Assembly (NCBI RefSeq): GCF_017875835.1
Contig: NZ_JAGING010000001.1
Location: 1,240,001 to 1,304,000, forward strand
Origin: Psychrobacter sp. PL19
GTDB taxonomy: Bacteria > Pseudomonadota > Gammaproteobacteria > Pseudomonadales > Moraxellaceae
Length of the DNA: 64,000 bases
Reading direction: 5' to 3'
In this document: one piece after another, positions 54,814 to 63,713 of the stretch
Layout of the letters: the number at the start of each line of letters is the position of its first letter
Numbering within the stretch: the first letter of the stretch is position 1
Program-made: the position numbers and the translations under genes
The notes under the pieces: model-generated
What the model saw: the letters and a program-made list of their open reading frames with translations, nothing else
What the model was told of the DNA's origin: nothing
Databases searched by the model: none

Positions 54814-55458
54814 ATGAAACGTGCCAAGCAGTTACAGCCGTTATCTCGCCAACATCATCTTGGACTGCATGTAGGACGTCACGCTAAAGAATGCGCTGAT
54901 AACCCGCAACAAGTCACCGAACACTGGCAAGCGCTATCCTCATATATGAGTGATATGCACGATCATTTTCAAATCGAAGACAACTTAATTGTTAATGCCT
55001 TACGACCTCATCAATCTAACCAGCCAGAAGTGGCGTCTGTACTTGGTAAACTAGAACAGCAGCATAAGCGACTGCATAAATTGACCGCAGAGATTCAAGC
55101 CACTCAAGACAATAAAAAAGGCCATGCTACTGATAATATATCAATTAAAGATCAAGTCGCTATAGATCAAGTCGCTATAGATCAAGTCACTATAGATCAA
55201 GTCACTATAGATCAAGTCGCTATAGATCAAGTCACTATAGATCAAGTCGCTATAGATCAAGTCGCTATAGATCAAGTCGCTATAGAAAAAATCACTGTTG
55301 AGCAAGTCAGGGAACTCGCTAATCTGCTATATGATCATATTCGCTTTGAAGAACGTGAACTGTTGCCTATGGTTGAAAAGTATCTGACAGAAGATGAGTT
55401 GAATGCTGTCTATGATGCTAGCCCAGATGATATTAAGCATTTAGACGAGCAGCGTTAA
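54814..55458 (+). CDS. hemerythrin HHE domain protein with 15-bp repeat insert
   Basis: 214 residues, well-placed AGGAG ribosome-binding site. HHE-type helices: S-R-Q-H-H-L-G-L near 8, M-H-D-H-F-Q-I-E-D near 47 and Y-D-H-I-R-F-E-E-R-E-L near 170. Metal-binding His/Glu are in place. Between helices three and four, about 50 residues consist of the five-residue unit D-Q-V-(A/T)-I, encoded by nine 15-bp repeats. The family binds di-iron for oxygen or nitrosative stress functions. The insert probably forms a charged helical spacer. Confidence 0.85.
   Translation: MKRAKQLQPLSRQHHLGLHVGRHAKECADNPQQVTEHWQALSSYMSDMHDHFQIEDNLIVNALRPHQSNQPEVASVLGKLEQQHKRLHKLTAEIQATQDNKKGHATDNISIKDQVAIDQVAIDQVTIDQVTIDQVAIDQVTIDQVAIDQVAIDQVAIEKITVEQVRELANLLYDHIRFEERELLPMVEKYLTEDELNAVYDASPDDIKHLDEQR
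55150..55284 (+). repeat. 15-bp tandem repeat x9 inside the hemerythrin gene
   Basis: Units GATCAAGTC(G/A)CTATA repeated nine times without interruption. A multiple of three, so copy-number changes keep the frame and only change the length of the D-Q-V-A-I insert. Confidence 0.95.
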
Positions 55459-55513: not shown

Positions 55514-56215
55514 TCATGGGTATTGATTTAACTTATTAACGCTGGCAATCAAAGCCACCATTATCATACCTATTACAATGAGAATAATAGACATGGTATG
55601 GGCAGCCTCGTAATTAAGGGCTTCTACTTGCTCATAGATAGCAATGGAGACGACCTTGGTTTCACCTGAGATGCTGCCACCTATCATCAAGACCACGCCA
55701 AACTCTCCAATGGTATGCGCAAAGCTAAGTAAGCTGCCAAGCACGATACCAACACGGGCCTGTGGTAAGGCCACTCTGATAAAGCGTCTCAAACGACTTG
55801 GCTCCAATAGATGGGCAACTTCGATGACGCTTCTTGGAATGCGTGAAAACTGTGCATAAACAGGCTGAATATAAAACGGTAGTGAGTAAATAATAGAGCC
55901 AATAACCAAGCCTTCAAAAGTAAATACGAATGGACTTATATTATGCTCGGCAAGCCATTTGCCAATACCGAAATTCGGACTTAGTAATAGCAATAAGTAA
56001 AAGCCAATCACAGTTGGTGGTAAGACTAGAGGCATAGCAATTACCCCCATCAATAGTATCTTTAAGCGCCCGACGATGTTGCCATGGCTGGGTTTAGCCA
56101 ACCAGTAAGCTAAAGGGGTCGCAAACAACAACAAGCACAATGTGGTAATACCGGCAAGTTTGATACTCACCCATACGGGGAGGAGCATGTCTGTTACAAG
56201 GGCTTGATTTATCAT
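55514..56215 (-). CDS. modB: molybdate ABC transporter permease
   Basis: 233 residues from M-I-N-Q-A-L-V; an in-frame TTG at 56290 gives 25 extra residues but neither start has a good ribosome-binding site. Five to six transmembrane helices and the permease EAA-like loop E-V-A-H-L-L-E-P-S-R-L-R-R near 140 fit ModB. It pairs with ModA upstream on the same strand. No modC ATPase gene is adjacent. A MITE lies in the modA-modB interval and could alter co-transcription. Confidence 0.88.
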   Translation of the reverse strand: MINQALVTDMLLPVWVSIKLAGITTLCLLLFATPLAYWLAKPSHGNIVGRLKILLMGVIAMPLVLPPTVIGFYLLLLLSPNFGIGKWLAEHNISPFVFTFEGLVIGSIIYSLPFYIQPVYAQFSRIPRSVIEVAHLLEPSRLRRFIRVALPQARVGIVLGSLLSFAHTIGEFGVVLMIGGSISGETKVVSIAIYEQVEALNYEAAHTMSIILIVIGMIMVALIASVNKLNQYP

Positions 56216-56328
56216 ATAGGCGCATTTAGATAATTTTGACAAAATAAAAGCAAACGCAGATAGTAGCCGTCTTATCAAAGCTACCGTCAAGCGAGGTTAA
56301 CGCGGTAGCAGATTTATATGGGTTTAAC

Positions 56329-56471
56329 TATGGTCGATTCAATTTAAACAAGATACAGTGCTACTGGAATGAATTTTTTGCAGCCTCTGTCACGCTTGCG
56401 AACAGCACGCAAGAAAAATTTATACCAGTGGCACATTGCTATACACATTTTTTTATTGTGAACTGACTATA
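56329..56471 (+). mobile_element. MITE copy B with IS630-like ends
   Basis: 143 bp. Left end TATGGTCGATTCAATTTAAA and right end TTATTGTGAACTGACTATA resemble the inverted repeats of the island IS630 copies. The inner part (GTGCTACTGGAATGAATTTT / AAAATTTATACCAGTGGCAC) folds into a long imperfect hairpin. No coding capacity. Clear relative of copy A. Lies between modA and modB. Confidence 0.78.
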
Positions 56472-56518
56472 TAACGTTGATACTGATTAATGATAATTAT
56501 AGCGTGAATGACGGTTGA

Positions 56519-57427
56519 TTATTGAACTGCTAGATAACCTGCTTTAGAAAAATAAGCTTGTCCTGCAGCAGAGCGCAGATAATCAGTAAAGTCTGTTGCC
56601 GTAGCAACATCAGTGATGATAATGCCATCTTGCAAGATAGCGGGATAAGAGTCTGGTGGCAAAATATAAAATTGCTCAGCTGTGGCTTTAATCGCTATGA
56701 CTTGTGATTGCGCAACTAAGCCATAATCAACACTACCGGTATGCGCATATTGAAAGGCTTGGCCAATATTTTCAGCCTGGATCAAGCGTTTTTGCTTATT
56801 AAGTGAGTCATAACTATTTTGCGATTGTAGATACACTTTTGCAGATTCGCCATAAGGGGCGAGCTCAGGATTAGCGATAGTGATTTTGGTCTGGTCATTG
56901 TTCTTAAATAGGTCAGTTAATGTTGTTTGCTTAAGGCCACTAACAGGTTTGGTCGTGCTGTATAGAGACAGTTGGCCTTGAGTATAAGTAAATGGTAAAT
57001 AAGTCTTTTTAGCTTTGGGCTTTTTATCAGCTAACTCATCCGCTAACTTGGCAGGGAATGTTTGGTTGGCAGATAAAAATATATCATAAGGCGCACCGGC
57101 TGTTATTTGCGCGTATAACTTACCAGAAGAAGCATAAGTCACTTCTATTTGTTGGTCAGGCAGGTCGCTATCTGTTTTATAGCCATTGATAATATCTGGC
57201 AATACATCTGATAAGTTAGCAGCGGCAGCAATGCGTAAGGTTTTTGTCTGTTCAGTTGTATTAGTAGCTACTGATTGCGCCGTTTCACTAGTGCTTTCTT
57301 TACTACAAGCTGATAGCGCCAATAGTAGGCAAGTAGATGCGCTTAGCGTTAATAAAATTTTTGATGACGCCGTAAAATGCTGCATTAAAGTTTGAGTACT
57401 GCGACCACTCAATGTATGAATTCTCAT
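56519..57427 (-). CDS. modA: molybdate-binding lipoprotein
   Basis: 302 residues. Lipobox L-A-L-S-A-C near 36-41. Mature part starts R-I-A-A-A-A-N-L-S-D-V-L near 66, with V-T-Y-A-S-S-G-K-L near 99 and G-A-P-Y-D-I-F-L-S-A near 111, the molybdate/tungstate-binding signature. It captures molybdate outside the inner membrane for ModB. A palindrome TATAGATATCTATA lies 14 bp upstream. Confidence 0.93.
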   Translation of the reverse strand: MRIHTLSGRSTQTLMQHFTASSKILLTLSASTCLLLALSACSKESTSETAQSVATNTTEQTKTLRIAAAANLSDVLPDIINGYKTDSDLPDQQIEVTYASSGKLYAQITAGAPYDIFLSANQTFPAKLADELADKKPKAKKTYLPFTYTQGQLSLYSTTKPVSGLKQTTLTDLFKNNDQTKITIANPELAPYGESAKVYLQSQNSYDSLNKQKRLIQAENIGQAFQYAHTGSVDYGLVAQSQVIAIKATAEQFYILPPDSYPAILQDGIIITDVATATDFTDYLRSAAGQAYFSKAGYLAVQ

Positions 57428-57454: not shown

Positions 57455-57631
57455 ATTGATATTTACAAGCTTGTGGTTTTATTACTACCAACAAGCTTTA
57501 TCTGACTTTGGAATGCCATTTTTATTTAAAATACATTTCTAAAAACCCCAGCTAAACATCTTTCTAAAACCACTCTCTAAAATGAATAAGCAAAAATGGG
57601 TTTATGATCACAGTTAATTAATCGAATTCAC

Positions 57632-57729
57632 TTAATGACAGTTACTTAATCAAATTTACTTAATGACGGTTACTTAATGACTGTTACTTAATGACTGTTA
57701 CTTAATGACTGTTACTCAACCATTGTTAC
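57632..57729. repeat. 14-bp tandem repeat x7 between modA and moaE
   Basis: Seven units of TTAATGACTGTTAC type; units 4-6 are identical and the outer ones diverge. The last unit (57716-57729) coincides with the 3' end of the repaired moaE frame, so the array seems to have grown from that end. Apart from this and the modA palindrome, the gap between modA and moaE holds nothing recognisable. Confidence 0.9.
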
Positions 57730-58289
57730 TTAGCCATTTAGAGGCTTCATTCTCATAATACTCTTGCTTCCAAACAGGTATATCAGCCTTGATAGTATCC
57801 AGTATCCAGTATCCAACGGCAGGCATCAAATGCGGGATAGCGATGCGCCGAAACCACCCCAATCCACACCGCTATATCACCTATCTCTAACGCGCCAATA
57901 CGATGAATAGCGATGGCATGGGTGATTTCAAATTTGTTCTTTGCTTCTGCAATGATTTGACGGCCTTGGTTAAGCGCTAAGTTTTCATAACCGTAGTAAG
58001 TCAGGCGCTCGACGCTACTGGCGTTATTATGATTGCGCACTCGGCCTTCAAAACTGACAAAGGCACCGCAACTGTCATCATCAAGTATATGCCTGAGTCT
58101 AGTCTCATCAATGGCGATATCTAATAGAGAAAAACCATCACGTTGAGCCAGCGCATAGGCGTCATCAACACTACGGCTAATACGCATTGATTGGCTGTGA
58201 ACGTCTGTTTTATCGTTTTCTACATCAATATTGGTATCGGTGTTGTCATCACTACTGCTATTATTATTACTGTTTACGCTAGCTGTCAT
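57716..58289 (-). pseudogene. moaE: molybdopterin synthase catalytic subunit, frameshifted near C-terminus
   Basis: The open frame (57783-58289) has 168 codons. The MoaE core is present: G-A-F-V-S-F-E-G-R-V-R-N-H-N, L-T-Y-Y-G-Y-E, I-A-I-H-R-I-G, and S-A-H-R-Y-P-A-F-D-A-C-R. It then ends abnormally W-I-L-D-T-G-Y-Y-Q-G. A 7-bp unit occurs three times here (57794-57814). With two units the frame reads W-I-L-D-T-I-K-A-D-I-P-V-W-K-Q-E and stops at 57716, giving 188 residues with the conserved lysine region. Those lysines are part of the active site in characterised MoaE, so the present form should be inactive. The N-terminal 35 residues are a polar extension. Confidence 0.8.
57794..57814. repeat. 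7-bp repeat x3 causing the moaE frameshift
   Basis: AGTATCC three times in tandem on the plus strand (GGATACT on the coding strand). Two units would keep moaE in frame; the third adds 7 bp and shifts it. Confidence 0.9.
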
Positions 58290-58359: not shown

Positions 58360-58674
58360 TCAGCCACCGGCTACTGGTGTGATAAACACCACATTGTCGC
58401 CATCATAAATAGCGTCGGTCCATTTAACGAAGTAATCATTCACTGCCACTCGTAATTGCGAATGGGGACGACTAAAACGATGTTTTCCCCTTAACTGCTC
58501 ATATAGTTCAGTGAGTGAGGTTGATTGCGCCACAGTTATTTTCTCTTCATTACAGTTGGCTTCATCCGCCAAGCCAGCAAAATATAAAACATTAATATCC
58601 ATAGTACTGTCTGCTATAGCCGTATCCGTAACTTGGTCTATATTTTTTTCTACAATGCTCATAGCGTTCTCCAT
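58360..58674 (-). CDS. moaD: molybdopterin synthase sulfur carrier subunit
   Basis: 104 residues, beta-grasp fold, ending in the thiocarboxylation motif P-V-A-G-G. Core includes V-L-Y-F-A-G-L-A-D near 28 and V-A-V-N-D-Y near 79. Longer than usual (about 81) because of a polar N-terminal 25-residue extension; a start at the fifth codon is also possible. Donates sulfur with MoaE to make molybdopterin. Five bp downstream of moaC. Confidence 0.88.
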   Translation of the reverse strand: MENAMSIVEKNIDQVTDTAIADSTMDINVLYFAGLADEANCNEEKITVAQSTSLTELYEQLRGKHRFSRPHSQLRVAVNDYFVKWTDAIYDGDNVVFITPVAGG

Positions 58675-58679
58675 TTTAA

Positions 58680-59213
58680 TTAATTAGATGGAAACTGATA
58701 CTCTGATTTACCACCGGTTTTATTAAGCAGATGAATATTATCAATAACAATATCATGCGACAACGCTTTGGTCATGTCATAGATAGTCAAGCAGGCAATG
58801 CTTACCGCCGTTAGCGCTTCCATCTCAACCCCTGTTTTATGAGTCACTTTTACCGTTGCCGTCACTACAATCGCTTGAGTACTATCATCATAAACAAAAT
58901 TTAAAGCAATTTTATCTAACGGTAGGGGGTGGCAAAGTGGAATGAGATCATGAGTACGCTTCGCCGCCATAATACCAGCGATATGGGCAGTCTGGGTGAT
59001 ACTGCCTTTCTTAGTCATGCCATCAGCCACTTTAATTTGAGTATAAATATCCTTTGGAAAGCGTACTTGTCCGCTAGCATGTGCCTCTCTAGTTGTCACC
59101 GTCTTACCGCTGACATCAACCATATTAATATCGCCATCACTGTCTAGATGAGACAAGCCAGACACGGTTAAGTCAAGTTGAGCATTTTCTGTAGAATCCG
59201 GGCTTGTTTGCAT
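58680..59213 (-). CDS. moaC: cyclic pyranopterin monophosphate synthase
   Basis: 177 residues. Conserved L-I-P-L-C-H-P-L-P-L near 95 and K-T-G-V-E-M-E-A-L-T near 126, K-S-E-Y-Q-F near the end. With MoaA it converts GTP to cPMP, the first step of molybdenum cofactor synthesis. The N-terminal 15 residues are extra. Followed closely by moaD. Confidence 0.93.
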   Translation of the reverse strand: MQTSPDSTENAQLDLTVSGLSHLDSDGDINMVDVSGKTVTTREAHASGQVRFPKDIYTQIKVADGMTKKGSITQTAHIAGIMAAKRTHDLIPLCHPLPLDKIALNFVYDDSTQAIVVTATVKVTHKTGVEMEALTAVSIACLTIYDMTKALSHDIVIDNIHLLNKTGGKSEYQFPSN

Positions 59214-59315: not shown

Positions 59316-60155
59316 TTAGACGTTATTTAAAGCAGCGTAAGCCCGTTGGAAGTCTTCAGGGGTATTAAAGTTAGTCAAGTGCGCCCATTTTTTTGACAAA
59401 GGAACCGTCTGTAAAAATGGCTCAATAAACTTAATCACCCGCCGTTCTCCACTACCAATATAAGCCATTAAATCAGGCTCAATACTTAAATGATAAAGCC
59501 CTAACAAGGGATATAAATGAGTCTCATCGGTTAAACAAATGACTTTTTTATCCGGCACTTGATTGGCCTGCTGAGCTTCTTCTTTATCGTTATGAGTTAA
59601 TATTCTAGTATGAGGTCGTAGCGTTTGCCAAAGTTCAGTGGCAGGAATTAAGCTATCACAACTAATGACCATTAACCAGGATGAGCGCTTTTTAGATGGA
59701 GCGTTATTCTTTAGCGTACTAGCGTCAGTTACATTTGCCAACGGCTGTTTTACTAAAGCCTGCATCGCTGATTCTATTGCTACTAAGGCACCACCGGTAT
59801 CGTTACCATCGGTAGTCGCTGTAGAACCATAATCAGTAATATGAAAAATAGGCGACTTTAAACGGTATGAAAGTAACTCTGGCGTGACAGTAAAGCCGCG
59901 GCTATTATCCGCAATCATAATGGGCACATTTAAATCAATAGCCTGTCGTACATGGTAATTCAGCAAAATTTCGCCGTTAGGCAGAGTCAGTGCAGCTTTG
60001 GCTGTACCCATGCGTCTAGACGCCCCACCAGCCAAAATGACTACGCCGGCTAAAAAATCCAAGTCATCCAAGGCATATAGGTCATTTGAATTATCTGAGA
60101 TATTCAGGTCATGTAAGACATCTGAATTATCTGGGCTAGCCAAACCATCAATCAT
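59316..60155 (-). CDS. mobA: molybdenum cofactor guanylyltransferase (MobA-like)
   Basis: 279 residues. Nucleotidyltransferase motif V-V-I-L-A-G-G-A-S-R-R-M-G-T-A-K near 37, and the S-C-D-S-L-I-P region near 165. Links GMP to molybdopterin in the cytoplasm. A 35-residue N-terminal extension precedes the motif, so a later start is possible. It overlaps the moaB end by 8 bp. The spacer insert (K-N-N-A-P-S-K-K-R) makes it longer than E. coli MobA (about 194). Confidence 0.8.
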   Translation of the reverse strand: MIDGLASPDNSDVLHDLNISDNSNDLYALDDLDFLAGVVILAGGASRRMGTAKAALTLPNGEILLNYHVRQAIDLNVPIMIADNSRGFTVTPELLSYRLKSPIFHITDYGSTATTDGNDTGGALVAIESAMQALVKQPLANVTDASTLKNNAPSKKRSSWLMVISCDSLIPATELWQTLRPHTRILTHNDKEEAQQANQVPDKKVICLTDETHLYPLLGLYHLSIEPDLMAYIGSGERRVIKFIEPFLQTVPLSKKWAHLTNFNTPEDFQRAYAALNNV

Positions 60156-60678
60156 GGCTGGGGTTTTCAGCCATCAAATGCGACACAAAATTGCAAGGGC
60201 GAGTACGGCTATCAAGCTGCTCGGCTATGATTTTGGTCCAACCAGTCCGGCAGGCACCCGATGAACCCGGTAAGCAAAATATAACCGTGTTATTTGCCAT
60301 ACCAGCGAGTGCCCGCGACTGCACGGTAGACATGCCAATCTCATCCTTTGAAATCAGCCGAAACATTTCACCAAAACCGTCAACAGCTTTGTCAAATAAC
60401 ACACTGACCGCCTCTGGCATACTGTCTCTCACAAAAAATCCTGTGCCACCTGTCGTGATAACCGTATGAATACTGGGGTCAGCAATCCAGCCACTGATAA
60501 CGGCTCGAATATGATAAATATCATCAGTAATGAGCTGGCGGTCCGCCAAATTATGTCCAGCTGCCGTTAAACTGTCTACTAAATACTGTCCCGAGGTGTC
60601 TTCTGCTAGTGTACGGCTATCAGATACAGTTAAGATAGCGATGTTAAGTGGCTTAAACGCAGCGGCTGGCTTGGTCAT
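60148..60678 (-). CDS. moaB: molybdopterin adenylyltransferase-type protein (MoaB/MogA family)
   Basis: 176 residues. Core motifs S-D-S-R-T-L-A-E-D-T-S-G near 17, T-T-G-G-T-G near 74, D-S-M-P-E near 83, and the second half L-P-G-S-S-G-A-C near 134. MoaB/MogA proteins adenylylate molybdopterin before metal insertion by MoeA. Overlaps mobA. Upstream lies a 9-bp tandem repeat between it and moaA. Confidence 0.88.
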   Translation of the reverse strand: MTKPAAAFKPLNIAILTVSDSRTLAEDTSGQYLVDSLTAAGHNLADRQLITDDIYHIRAVISGWIADPSIHTVITTGGTGFFVRDSMPEAVSVLFDKAVDGFGEMFRLISKDEIGMSTVQSRALAGMANNTVIFCLPGSSGACRTGWTKIIAEQLDSRTRPCNFVSHLMAENPSHD

Positions 60679-60703
60679 AGTTAATCCTTAGTCGTTGTAC
60701 TTT

Positions 60704-60774
60704 AATGATGTTAATGATGTTAATGATGTTAATGATGTTAATGATGTTAATGATGTTAATGATGTTAATGATGT
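60704..60774. repeat. 9-bp tandem repeat, about 8 copies
   Basis: AATGATGTT repeated seven times exactly plus a last variant, between the moaA stop and the moaB start. It makes up part of the moaB leader, so copy number could affect translation or spacing. Plus-strand ORFs of (N-D-V)n across it are repeat artefacts. Confidence 0.95.
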
Positions 60775-60885: not shown

Positions 60886-62019
60886 CTAACCACCGATTAA
60901 TGATAAGTTGTGCATCATACCGCTATTAGAATCGTGCAAATGATGGTGCTCAGGCTTGATAGGCATAAAGCCTTGTAAGTCACTGACTAAACCTTCGATA
61001 TCATCGTTTTTGAGGTGTTCTCTAATATCGTAGTTGCCTTGGTCAAATAAGCATAAATGTACCTTGCCCAAGCTACTGACCCGTAAACGATTACAGTTAT
61101 CACAAAAGTGGGCCGCATACGGGGCAATCATACCAATCCGTCCAACATAGTCCGGATGACTATATTCTATTGCAGGGCCATCGGCACTACCACGATCATG
61201 AGGCTGCCAGCCATGTTCTAGCAAGTAGTCAGTAATACTACCAGCATGCGCGTGCTGCGCAAAAAATAAATCGCTGTTATCACTGGTTTGCATGAATTCG
61301 ATAAAACGATAGGTCACTGGACGACTTTTAATATAGTCCATGGCGCTCAGCAAGGTTTGAAAGGCAGTTTCTGCCATTAGCACCGCATTTATTTTTAATT
61401 TAATGTCTGTGGTTGCTAGCAATTGATCCATATCGGCCAGTAACTGCGGCAACATATCAAAGCCAGTCATCTTGTGAAAAGTGCTCGCGTCGAAGCTATC
61501 CATACTGATGTTAATTTGATTCAATCCGGCAGCTTGCCAATTGGCCAAATGCTTGCCTAGCTTATAACCATTACTGGTCATCGCCACAGTTTCAATACCA
61601 GGCGTTTGTTTTATAGTTCGAATAATATCTACTACATCTCGGCGAATAGAAGGCTCACCACCTGTGATTCGTACCTTTCGGGTCCCCACTTGGGCAAATC
61701 CACGAATTAACGTAGCAATCTCAGCCACACTCAACTCGTCATCAGGACGCTTGCCTTGATAACCATTGGGCAAACAGTACTCACAGCGGAAGTTACAGAA
61801 GTCTGTAATCGATAAGCGCAGATAGGTGAGACGTCGCGAAAAACCGTCTGTTAATGGTTCATAAGGGCCAATGGATGAATCAGCAGGCGTCGCAGCTATA
61901 GAAGAGGATAGGGGGCTATTAATATGGTTATTAATATGGTTGTTATTATCAAGATTAGGGGGTGTTGAGACCGGTGAATACAACTGGGCATTCCCTAGTA
62001 GGGGATCATGATAATTCAT
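60886..62019 (-). CDS. moaA: GTP 3',8-cyclase
   Basis: 377 residues. Radical SAM cluster C-N-F-R-C-E-Y-C near 73-80, followed by L-P-N-G-Y; G-G-E-P near 119; second cluster C-D-N-C-N-R-L near 309 with C-L-F-D; and a C-terminal G-G tail required for activity. About 60 N-terminal residues are a low-complexity Asn/Ser extension. Catalyses the first step of molybdopterin synthesis with MoaC. Transcribed in line with moaB/mobA and separated from moeA by a terminator. Confidence 0.93.
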   Translation of the reverse strand: MNYHDPLLGNAQLYSPVSTPPNLDNNNHINNHINSPLSSSIAATPADSSIGPYEPLTDGFSRRLTYLRLSITDFCNFRCEYCLPNGYQGKRPDDELSVAEIATLIRGFAQVGTRKVRITGGEPSIRRDVVDIIRTIKQTPGIETVAMTSNGYKLGKHLANWQAAGLNQINISMDSFDASTFHKMTGFDMLPQLLADMDQLLATTDIKLKINAVLMAETAFQTLLSAMDYIKSRPVTYRFIEFMQTSDNSDLFFAQHAHAGSITDYLLEHGWQPHDRGSADGPAIEYSHPDYVGRIGMIAPYAAHFCDNCNRLRVSSLGKVHLCLFDQGNYDIREHLKNDDIEGLVSDLQGFMPIKPEHHHLHDSNSGMMHNLSLIGG

Positions 62020-62210: not shown

Positions 62211-63539
62211 CTAAATGTGTAACCAAGGAAATGGTTGCACATCGACAGTAATACCTGATGTCACATTGCCACTTTCTTGTTCTAAAACAATGAAACAGTT
62301 CGCACGACTGAGCTGCTTTATTCTGTGGGAGTCCTGTTTAGAGAAACATTCTACTTGATAGTGGCCTTGTTCATTTCTTGACAGCACGCCGCGCTGAAAA
62401 TCAGTACGACCGACTGATTTTCTTATATCAGTCTTTAACATCGCTGGTACGGTCAATTGCATTGGCTGCTCTGACGCGCTAACCCCTGACATCTGCCATA
62501 ATGCTGGAATCACAAACTGCAACGTGCCGACGACGGTTGATAAAGGATTACCGGGTAAGCCAAAATATAATACCGGCTTATTAATATCTTTATTCAATTC
62601 ACCAAACACGAAGGGTTTGCCGGGCTTCATGGCCACTTTATAGTGATTAATTTGTCCTAACTGCTCAATGACCGTGGTCAAAAAGTCATAATCACCAACG
62701 GATACGCCCGCTGTGGAAATAAGCACATCACAGTCGTGCATCGCTTTCGTGACGGCGGTGGTGGTCTGCTCTAAATTGTCTGCGATAATGCCATAATCAT
62801 GAATGACCACTGGCAGTCTAGACAGTAAGCTTTTGAGGGTGGGGGTATTGGAGTTATATATTTGTGCCAAACTATCCAGTTGTCCACCTAGGGCTACCAA
62901 CTCGTCGCCTGTCGCTAGCACACCGATAGTTAGTGGTCTATAGACCTGAACTTTATCAATACCTAGATTGGCAAGTAAACTAATATCAGCAGGATTCAAG
63001 CGTTTGCCAGCGGTTAATAATACCTCGCCAGATTCAATTTCTTCCCCTTGCTTGCGAATATTTCTATCAAGCTCAGCTGATTTTGATAAGGTTATGAGAT
63101 AAGGTTGCGATTTGTCGATGCTAGTTCTTATATCAGCAAAATTGGTATTTTCTTGTATGATTACCGTATCACATTCTACTGGAACGACCGCGCCGGTAAA
63201 AATCCGGACACCTTGTCCTATTTGTATATCGCCAATATAAGGGCTGCCGGCCTGTGATTCGCCAATAATCTCAATCGTGCTATCTTTTGCAGTATCACTA
63301 TTATGAGCAATAGCATAACCATCCATCGCGGATAGATTCTGTCTCGGTACGGTAAACGGAGACGCAATACTTTGAGCCAGTATCTGATTTTGACTGTCTA
63401 AAAGTTCGCAAGTTTGCGTGGCTCTATGAGCTACAGGACAATCAACTCGATTATAAGTGTTAACACGCTGCGTTATAGCGTGTTGAAGTTGCTCAACGGT
63501 AATCATTATATTTAGACTCACTTGTATCTGATAGTACAT
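62211..63539 (-). CDS. moeA: molybdopterin molybdotransferase
   Basis: 442 residues, or about 432 if translation starts at M-I-T-V-E-Q-L, as in most relatives. Conserved motifs A-M-D-G-Y-A near 71, T-G-A-V-V-P near 115, T-G-D-E near 209, S-T-A-G-V-S-V-G-D-Y-D near 275 and G-L-P-G-N-P near 327. Inserts molybdate into adenylylated molybdopterin. Runs in the same direction as moaA, with a terminator between. Confidence 0.93.
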   Translation of the reverse strand: MYYQIQVSLNIMITVEQLQHAITQRVNTYNRVDCPVAHRATQTCELLDSQNQILAQSIASPFTVPRQNLSAMDGYAIAHNSDTAKDSTIEIIGESQAGSPYIGDIQIGQGVRIFTGAVVPVECDTVIIQENTNFADIRTSIDKSQPYLITLSKSAELDRNIRKQGEEIESGEVLLTAGKRLNPADISLLANLGIDKVQVYRPLTIGVLATGDELVALGGQLDSLAQIYNSNTPTLKSLLSRLPVVIHDYGIIADNLEQTTTAVTKAMHDCDVLISTAGVSVGDYDFLTTVIEQLGQINHYKVAMKPGKPFVFGELNKDINKPVLYFGLPGNPLSTVVGTLQFVIPALWQMSGVSASEQPMQLTVPAMLKTDIRKSVGRTDFQRGVLSRNEQGHYQVECFSKQDSHRIKQLSRANCFIVLEQESGNVTSGITVDVQPFPWLHI

Positions 63540-63660
63540 ACGATGGACTGACTATAGCATGCTCAAAAGTAATGAGTGTTGTCAAATTCGCTATGCTGTC
63601 TTATTAACGGCGATCAAATATTAGTATATAAGTAGGGCAGAGCCGGCGGACTATAACTGA

Positions 63661-63688
63661 ATTAGCAATTAGCAATTAGCAATTAGCA
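63661..63688. repeat. 7-bp tandem repeat x4
   Basis: ATTAGCA repeated four times in the 299-bp gap between moeA and fdhD. The gap also has a terminator at 63714-63749; nothing else is clear. Confidence 0.9.
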
Positions 63689-63713
63689 ATGATTTGACTC
63701 TATCATCAATAAT

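Follow-up and report, generated by a model that had tools for sequence, protein, structure and literature searches.

The single moaE gene of Psychrobacter sp. PL19, which encodes the large subunit of molybdopterin synthase, appears to be a recent loss-of-function allele that arose when slipped-strand mispairing duplicated a 7-bp unit, and it bears no sign of an evolved switch; we give this reading a probability of about 0.7. The gene lies in the window, which is the whole 64,000-nucleotide stretch of DNA that was analysed. The genome is a single contig of 3,119,997 bases, rated 100% complete and 0.01% contaminated.

The moaE array and frameshift

Three copies of GGATACT are present on the minus strand within moaE (AGTATCC on the plus strand), and positions 57815-57794 of that strand read T-GGATACT-GGATACT-GGATACT. 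Tandem Repeats Finder gave a period of 7, 3.1 copies and a 100% match for this array. The unit is not divisible by three and the array occupies a frame-setting position. From the ATG at 58289, the frame ends at 57783 after 168 residues (...RWILDTGYYQG), five residues past the departure from the conserved frame. The conserved MoaE C-terminus, IKADIPVWKQEYYENEASKWLSNNG followed by a stop, follows immediately 3', in a different frame whose stop is at 57716 (Table 1). A first, sequence-only reading had stated that the three copies at 57794-57814 shift the frame and that two copies would carry it on to the stop at 57716 (188 residues). The shift was confirmed by the sequence, Tandem Repeats Finder and translation, and the coordinates and arithmetic of the two-copy form are correct. 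The full 21-bp (GGATACT)3 array occurs only once in the genome.

There is also a 14-bp array of about eight imperfect, AGTAACAGTCATTA-like copies at window positions 57610-57732, with its start at the stop codon of moaE. In some relatives the same place is taken by a 14-bp array of their own (L034:6530-6597, AATGGCTAAGTAAC in 4.9 copies); the codons of W-L-S-N-N-G-stop were apparently its source.

Table 1. Coordinates of moaE, its tandem array and the neighbouring genes (positions in the window).
Feature	Positions	Strand	Remarks
moaE frame as sequenced, 168 residues	57783..58289	-	PF02391 positions 6-110 of 114
GGATACT x3 tandem array; downstream frame set by copy number	57794..57814	-	
Orphaned MoaE C-terminus IKADIPVWKQEYYENEASKWLSNNG and stop, other frame	57716..57793	-	
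Lys codon equivalent to E. coli MoaE K119, out of frame	57788..57790	-	Alignment of intact relative with 1nvj/3bii
Lys codon equivalent to E. coli MoaE K126, out of frame	57767..57769	-	Alignment of intact relative with solved MoaE chains
moaD, sulfur-carrier subunit of molybdopterin synthase, open	58360..58674	-	
moaC, open	58680..59213	-	
mobA-like guanylyltransferase, open	59316..60155	-	
moaB, open	60148..60678	-	
moaA, open	60886..62019	-	
moeA, open	62211..63539	-	
modA, molybdate-binding protein, open	56519..57427	-	
modB, molybdate permease, open	55514..56290	-	Internal ATG gives 233 residues, as in relatives

Predicted loss of MoaE function

When an intact relative is aligned with the solved MoaE chains, the equivalents of both catalytic lysines, K119 and K126, are placed 3' of the frameshift, in agreement with the earlier claim that a lysine-bearing tail is lost. 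In E. coli MoaE, K119 is essential and the K126A variant is nearly 60-fold slower (PMC4443979). The encoded 168-residue protein is without both equivalents and does not qualify as a working MoaE; judged by its sequence, the locus is a broken moaE. The product scores 106.4 bits against PF02391 (cut-off 23.4; positions 6-110 of 114). It passes the cut-off because the model ends near the break, before both lysines, and the pass is therefore no sign of function.

It is very improbable that moaE works as it stands. This would need +1 ribosomal frameshifting near the GGC UGA stop, an internal start at the ATG just upstream of the repeat, or activity of the 168-residue protein itself. The frame of the tail is already open upstream of the repeat and contains an ATG, and the truncated protein does pass the Pfam cut-off. 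However, the Pfam model ends before either lysine is scored, and the frames of relatives are intact and need no frameshifting. A programmed frameshift was rejected, since inspection by eye gave no recognised signal and the K119 equivalent would be missed if the shift took place at the stop.

The sequence-only reading had regarded a second intact moaE as fatal to its claim. No second moaE or divergent replacement was found in the 3.12-Mb single-contig genome, which contains one PF02391 match. In a cell with a null moaE and no active MoaE, the step from cPMP to molybdopterin would be blocked, and the strain is predicted from its genome to be Moco-negative. Annotation may not flag the truncated moaE. 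For users of the strain, automatic annotation would thus mislead, as the strain is predicted to be Moco-negative despite a moaE that passes Pfam.

Neighbouring genes and molybdoenzymes

Downstream of fdhD and a gene for an FdhF/YdeP-type oxidoreductase, the genes moeA, moaA, moaB, mobA, moaC, moaD, moaE, modA, and modB follow one another on one strand. The order from moeA to modB is common to P. frigidicola (L033) and G090. All of these genes are open except moaE; the neighbouring moa and moe genes are intact, as had been claimed, and the mob and mod frames are open too. The modA and modB genes (window 55514-57427) are without an adjoining modC in the loci examined, and no modC-type ATPase above the modC cut-off was found in this genome (G000), G005 or G090.

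At least two molybdoenzymes are intact, and probably three: xanthine dehydrogenase, the FdhF/YdeP-type enzyme, and a 751-residue oxidoreductase. XdhB is open, full length and above its NCBIfam cut-off, and the FdhF/YdeP-type protein is open, full length and above its family cut-off. The 751-residue protein, the probable third, is open and was matched to no single family. Three molybdopterin-oxidoreductase (PF00384) matches are present in the genome, and one of these is NuoG, which needs no Moco. NarG and NapA are absent among the three matches, so nitrate reductase activity is uninformative for the Moco status of the strain. No SUOX/YedY-type protein was found in the genome.

The possibility that Moco is no longer needed was rejected, as the client enzymes are intact. 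Moco appears to be still needed while its synthesis is broken, and xanthine dehydrogenase, the FdhF/YdeP-type enzyme and probably the 751-residue oxidoreductase would be made cofactor-free. Since these enzymes are intact, the loss should be costly; a stable null allele is for this reason a little surprising, which counts against our preferred reading.

moaE in relatives and age of the lesion

The moaE gene is present in 103 of 105 genomes of the genus, nearly all of them with a full-length gene and a conserved tail. In the gene studied here, conservation (dN/dS about 0.1) extends over head and orphaned tail alike. In comparisons with 14 relatives, the head has a dN of about 0.1-0.2, at dS values of about 1 or higher that are in some cases saturated. 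Over its 25 codons the tail shows 1-4 amino-acid changes and 7-10 silent ones. The tail was thus under purifying selection until recently, and the continued conservation of head and tail indicates that the lesion is recent. The gene is intact in nearly all relatives, bears a single lesion in an otherwise conserved sequence, and has no other gene to take over its function, which together fit a recent slippage pseudogene.

The main rival to a null allele is that the third copy is absent from the living wild strain, either as an assembly error or as a variant of culture, where Moco enzymes are dispensable. We give this a minor chance. The neighbouring genes and molybdoenzymes are all intact and the lesion is so young that the rest of moaE is undecayed, both of which would suit such an artefact, but the genome is one contig at 100% completeness. 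Assemblies of the genus that are full of errors look unlike this one: G051 and G075 reach 85-86% completeness, and several of their genes have broken frames. A duplication of exactly 7 bp is atypical as a homopolymer-type error, and any ordinary read would cover a whole 21-bp array. General decay or poor assembly was also considered and rejected, as the mean open reading frame is 362 residues in the sampled stretches versus 324-372 in three relatives, and completeness is 100%. We infer that the living strain does carry the array and that a slip was its origin.

Changes in the moa genes were seen elsewhere in the genus. In G032, moeA-moaA-moaB-mobA-moaC are present, moaD and moaE are absent, and a transposase gene follows moaC at the contig end (L154 9460-10414); NarG, located elsewhere in that genome, is intact. 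In G034, moeA, moaA, and moaE were not found, although the genome has NarG-length and other PF00384 proteins. G007 has a second, decayed moa cluster (L100) beside an intact cluster on another contig. The decayed cluster consists of a partial moeA, a moaA fragment, moaB, mobA, the last moaE residues, modA, and modB, and may reflect replacement by gene transfer or duplication. G040 encodes a second MoaE-like protein (L101 2141-2668), about 29% identical to the usual one and outside the moa cluster. Loss or replacement of a moa gene seems to be no rarity in the genus, with draft assemblies leaving room for gaps, and such losses make an ordinary loss event in the present strain less surprising.

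The repeat site across the genus

Conservation of the repeat in the genus was rejected. The exact two-copy sequence TGGATACTGGATACT is present in two of the 105 genomes, this one and G090 (one of the 104 relatives), and three copies of GGATACT at moaE were found in none of the other 104. At the 58 loci compared, in which some species are represented twice, the same peptide is spelled by 34 distinct DNA sequences, most of them with an interrupted repeat. The dimer is thus a by-product of codon choice for W-I-L-D-T, and there is no sign of selection keeping the array. In G090 the exact dimer is part of an intact moaE, so the exact seed for a slip exists in a relative.

The codons of W-I-L-D-T (TGG ATA CTG GAT ACT) by chance form a perfect 7-bp dimer, in which one replication slip would have produced a third unit and shifted the frame. 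The last 25 residues, including both catalytic lysines, would thereby have been replaced by GYYQG. A reverse slip is physically possible and rare revertants would be expected, with nothing that shows selection for switchability.

Short tandem arrays in the genome

Array densities were obtained from 464 kb, made up of 20 evenly spaced 20-kb stretches (L114-L133) and the window. Perfect arrays of 7-21 bp units with at least three copies occur at 43 per Mb in this sample, at 5, 30, and 5 per Mb in samples of G090, G005, and G016, and at 37 per Mb in 29 moa regions of the genus; two Markov simulations contained none. They are about eight times commoner here than in the G090 and G016 samples. Heptamers are the commonest unit among them, and the six perfect heptamer arrays of at least three copies in 464 kb, versus none in two third-order Markov simulations of 464 kb, are not chance products. 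Five of the six are intergenic, and the moaE array is the only one within a gene in the 464 kb sampled.

Arrays of at least 2.5 copies comprise 14 triplet and 2 non-triplet arrays in genes, and 6 triplet and 20 non-triplet arrays outside them. Such a split is to be expected if slips that break the frame of a gene are as a rule eliminated. The other non-triplet array in a gene (L116:14809-14826) is in an open 304-residue frame and is not a lesion. Frame-breaking arrays are thus almost all intergenic, and the moaE lesion, being in a gene, illustrates the cost of an array-rich genome. The moa region is locally rich in such arrays, with five of the six in the window falling in a span of about 9 kb; this was noticed post hoc, and the moa loci of the genus are not richer in arrays than the genomes at large.

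Some arrays of the window are close to, or within, other genes. A 9-bp array of 8.1 copies is present at 60702-60774, 24 bp upstream of moaB, and a 7-bp array of 4.4 copies at 63660-63690, about 120 bp upstream of moeA. Effects of their copy number on expression are possible. A 15-bp array at 55149-55308 lengthens a hemerythrin-domain protein (214 residues) by about ten DQVAI/DQVTI pentapeptides; the counterpart of this protein in G090 has 158 residues.

Phase variation or a simple slip

The moaE array could also be read as a contingency locus, in which the copy number of the heptamer would turn moaE on or off in part of the population, together with all molybdoenzymes. A 7-bp unit, not divisible by three and located inside a reading frame, has the right geometry for this, and heptamer arrays are frequent in this genome. 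Heptamer arrays upstream of genes vary between Moraxella catarrhalis strains (PMC7302503), and three-copy repeats can toggle, as in the 6-bp x3 repeat of Salmonella mutL (PMC2955026). However, the repeat of a contingency locus should be kept or recur among relatives, and at this site it does neither; the trimer is found here alone, and most of the 34 spellings have no full repeat, so that selection for an array is not visible. Three copies are only the lower threshold for simple sequence repeats (PMC2651432), and moaE is a core cofactor gene. Among the papers found, none describes a moa gene as switched by a coding repeat, and none bears directly on Psychrobacter heptamers. An evolved phase switch is thus unlikely, and we give it a slim chance.

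The sequence-only reading had proposed decay or phase variation. Decay, in the form of a recent null allele, fits better, and phase variation did not hold up because the repeat is not maintained in relatives. Rare reversion is plausible by analogy with mutL, since low-copy repeats such as 6 bp x3 can toggle (PMC2955026). In a wider form of the switch, the coding heptamer would make the whole molybdoenzyme set of the population switchable, and the upstream arrays of moaB (9-mer x8) and moeA (7-mer x4.4) would tune expression; the chance of this is slighter still. A population switch of all molybdoenzymes would be notable if true, but the comparison with relatives speaks against it.

Comparison with known systems

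The interconversion of alleles at the 6-bp x3 repeat of mutL has been studied in Salmonella typhimurium and E. coli (PMC2955026). As in moaE, a short tandem repeat of three copies is present in a core gene and slippage alters its function (PMC2955026). In mutL, however, the gene works with three copies, and the frame is kept because the unit length is divisible by three, whereas in moaE three copies break the frame and reversion is hypothetical. The hmw1A and hmw2A genes of Haemophilus influenzae also have simple sequence repeats with a 7-bp unit (PMC2651432). Those repeats belong to the promoters of adhesins of the cell surface, and the loci have been described as phase-variable, whereas moaE has three copies in a housekeeping coding sequence. 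Moraxella catarrhalis, of the same family, has intergenic 7-bp arrays whose copy number differs between strains, but the heptamers listed are upstream of genes and none is in moaE (PMC7302503). Ordinary slippage pseudogenes, known as frameshifts of single strains, are likewise confined to one genome, recent, and found in a gene that is otherwise undecayed and intact in relatives. Among the features tested, moaE does not differ from these and can be placed with them.
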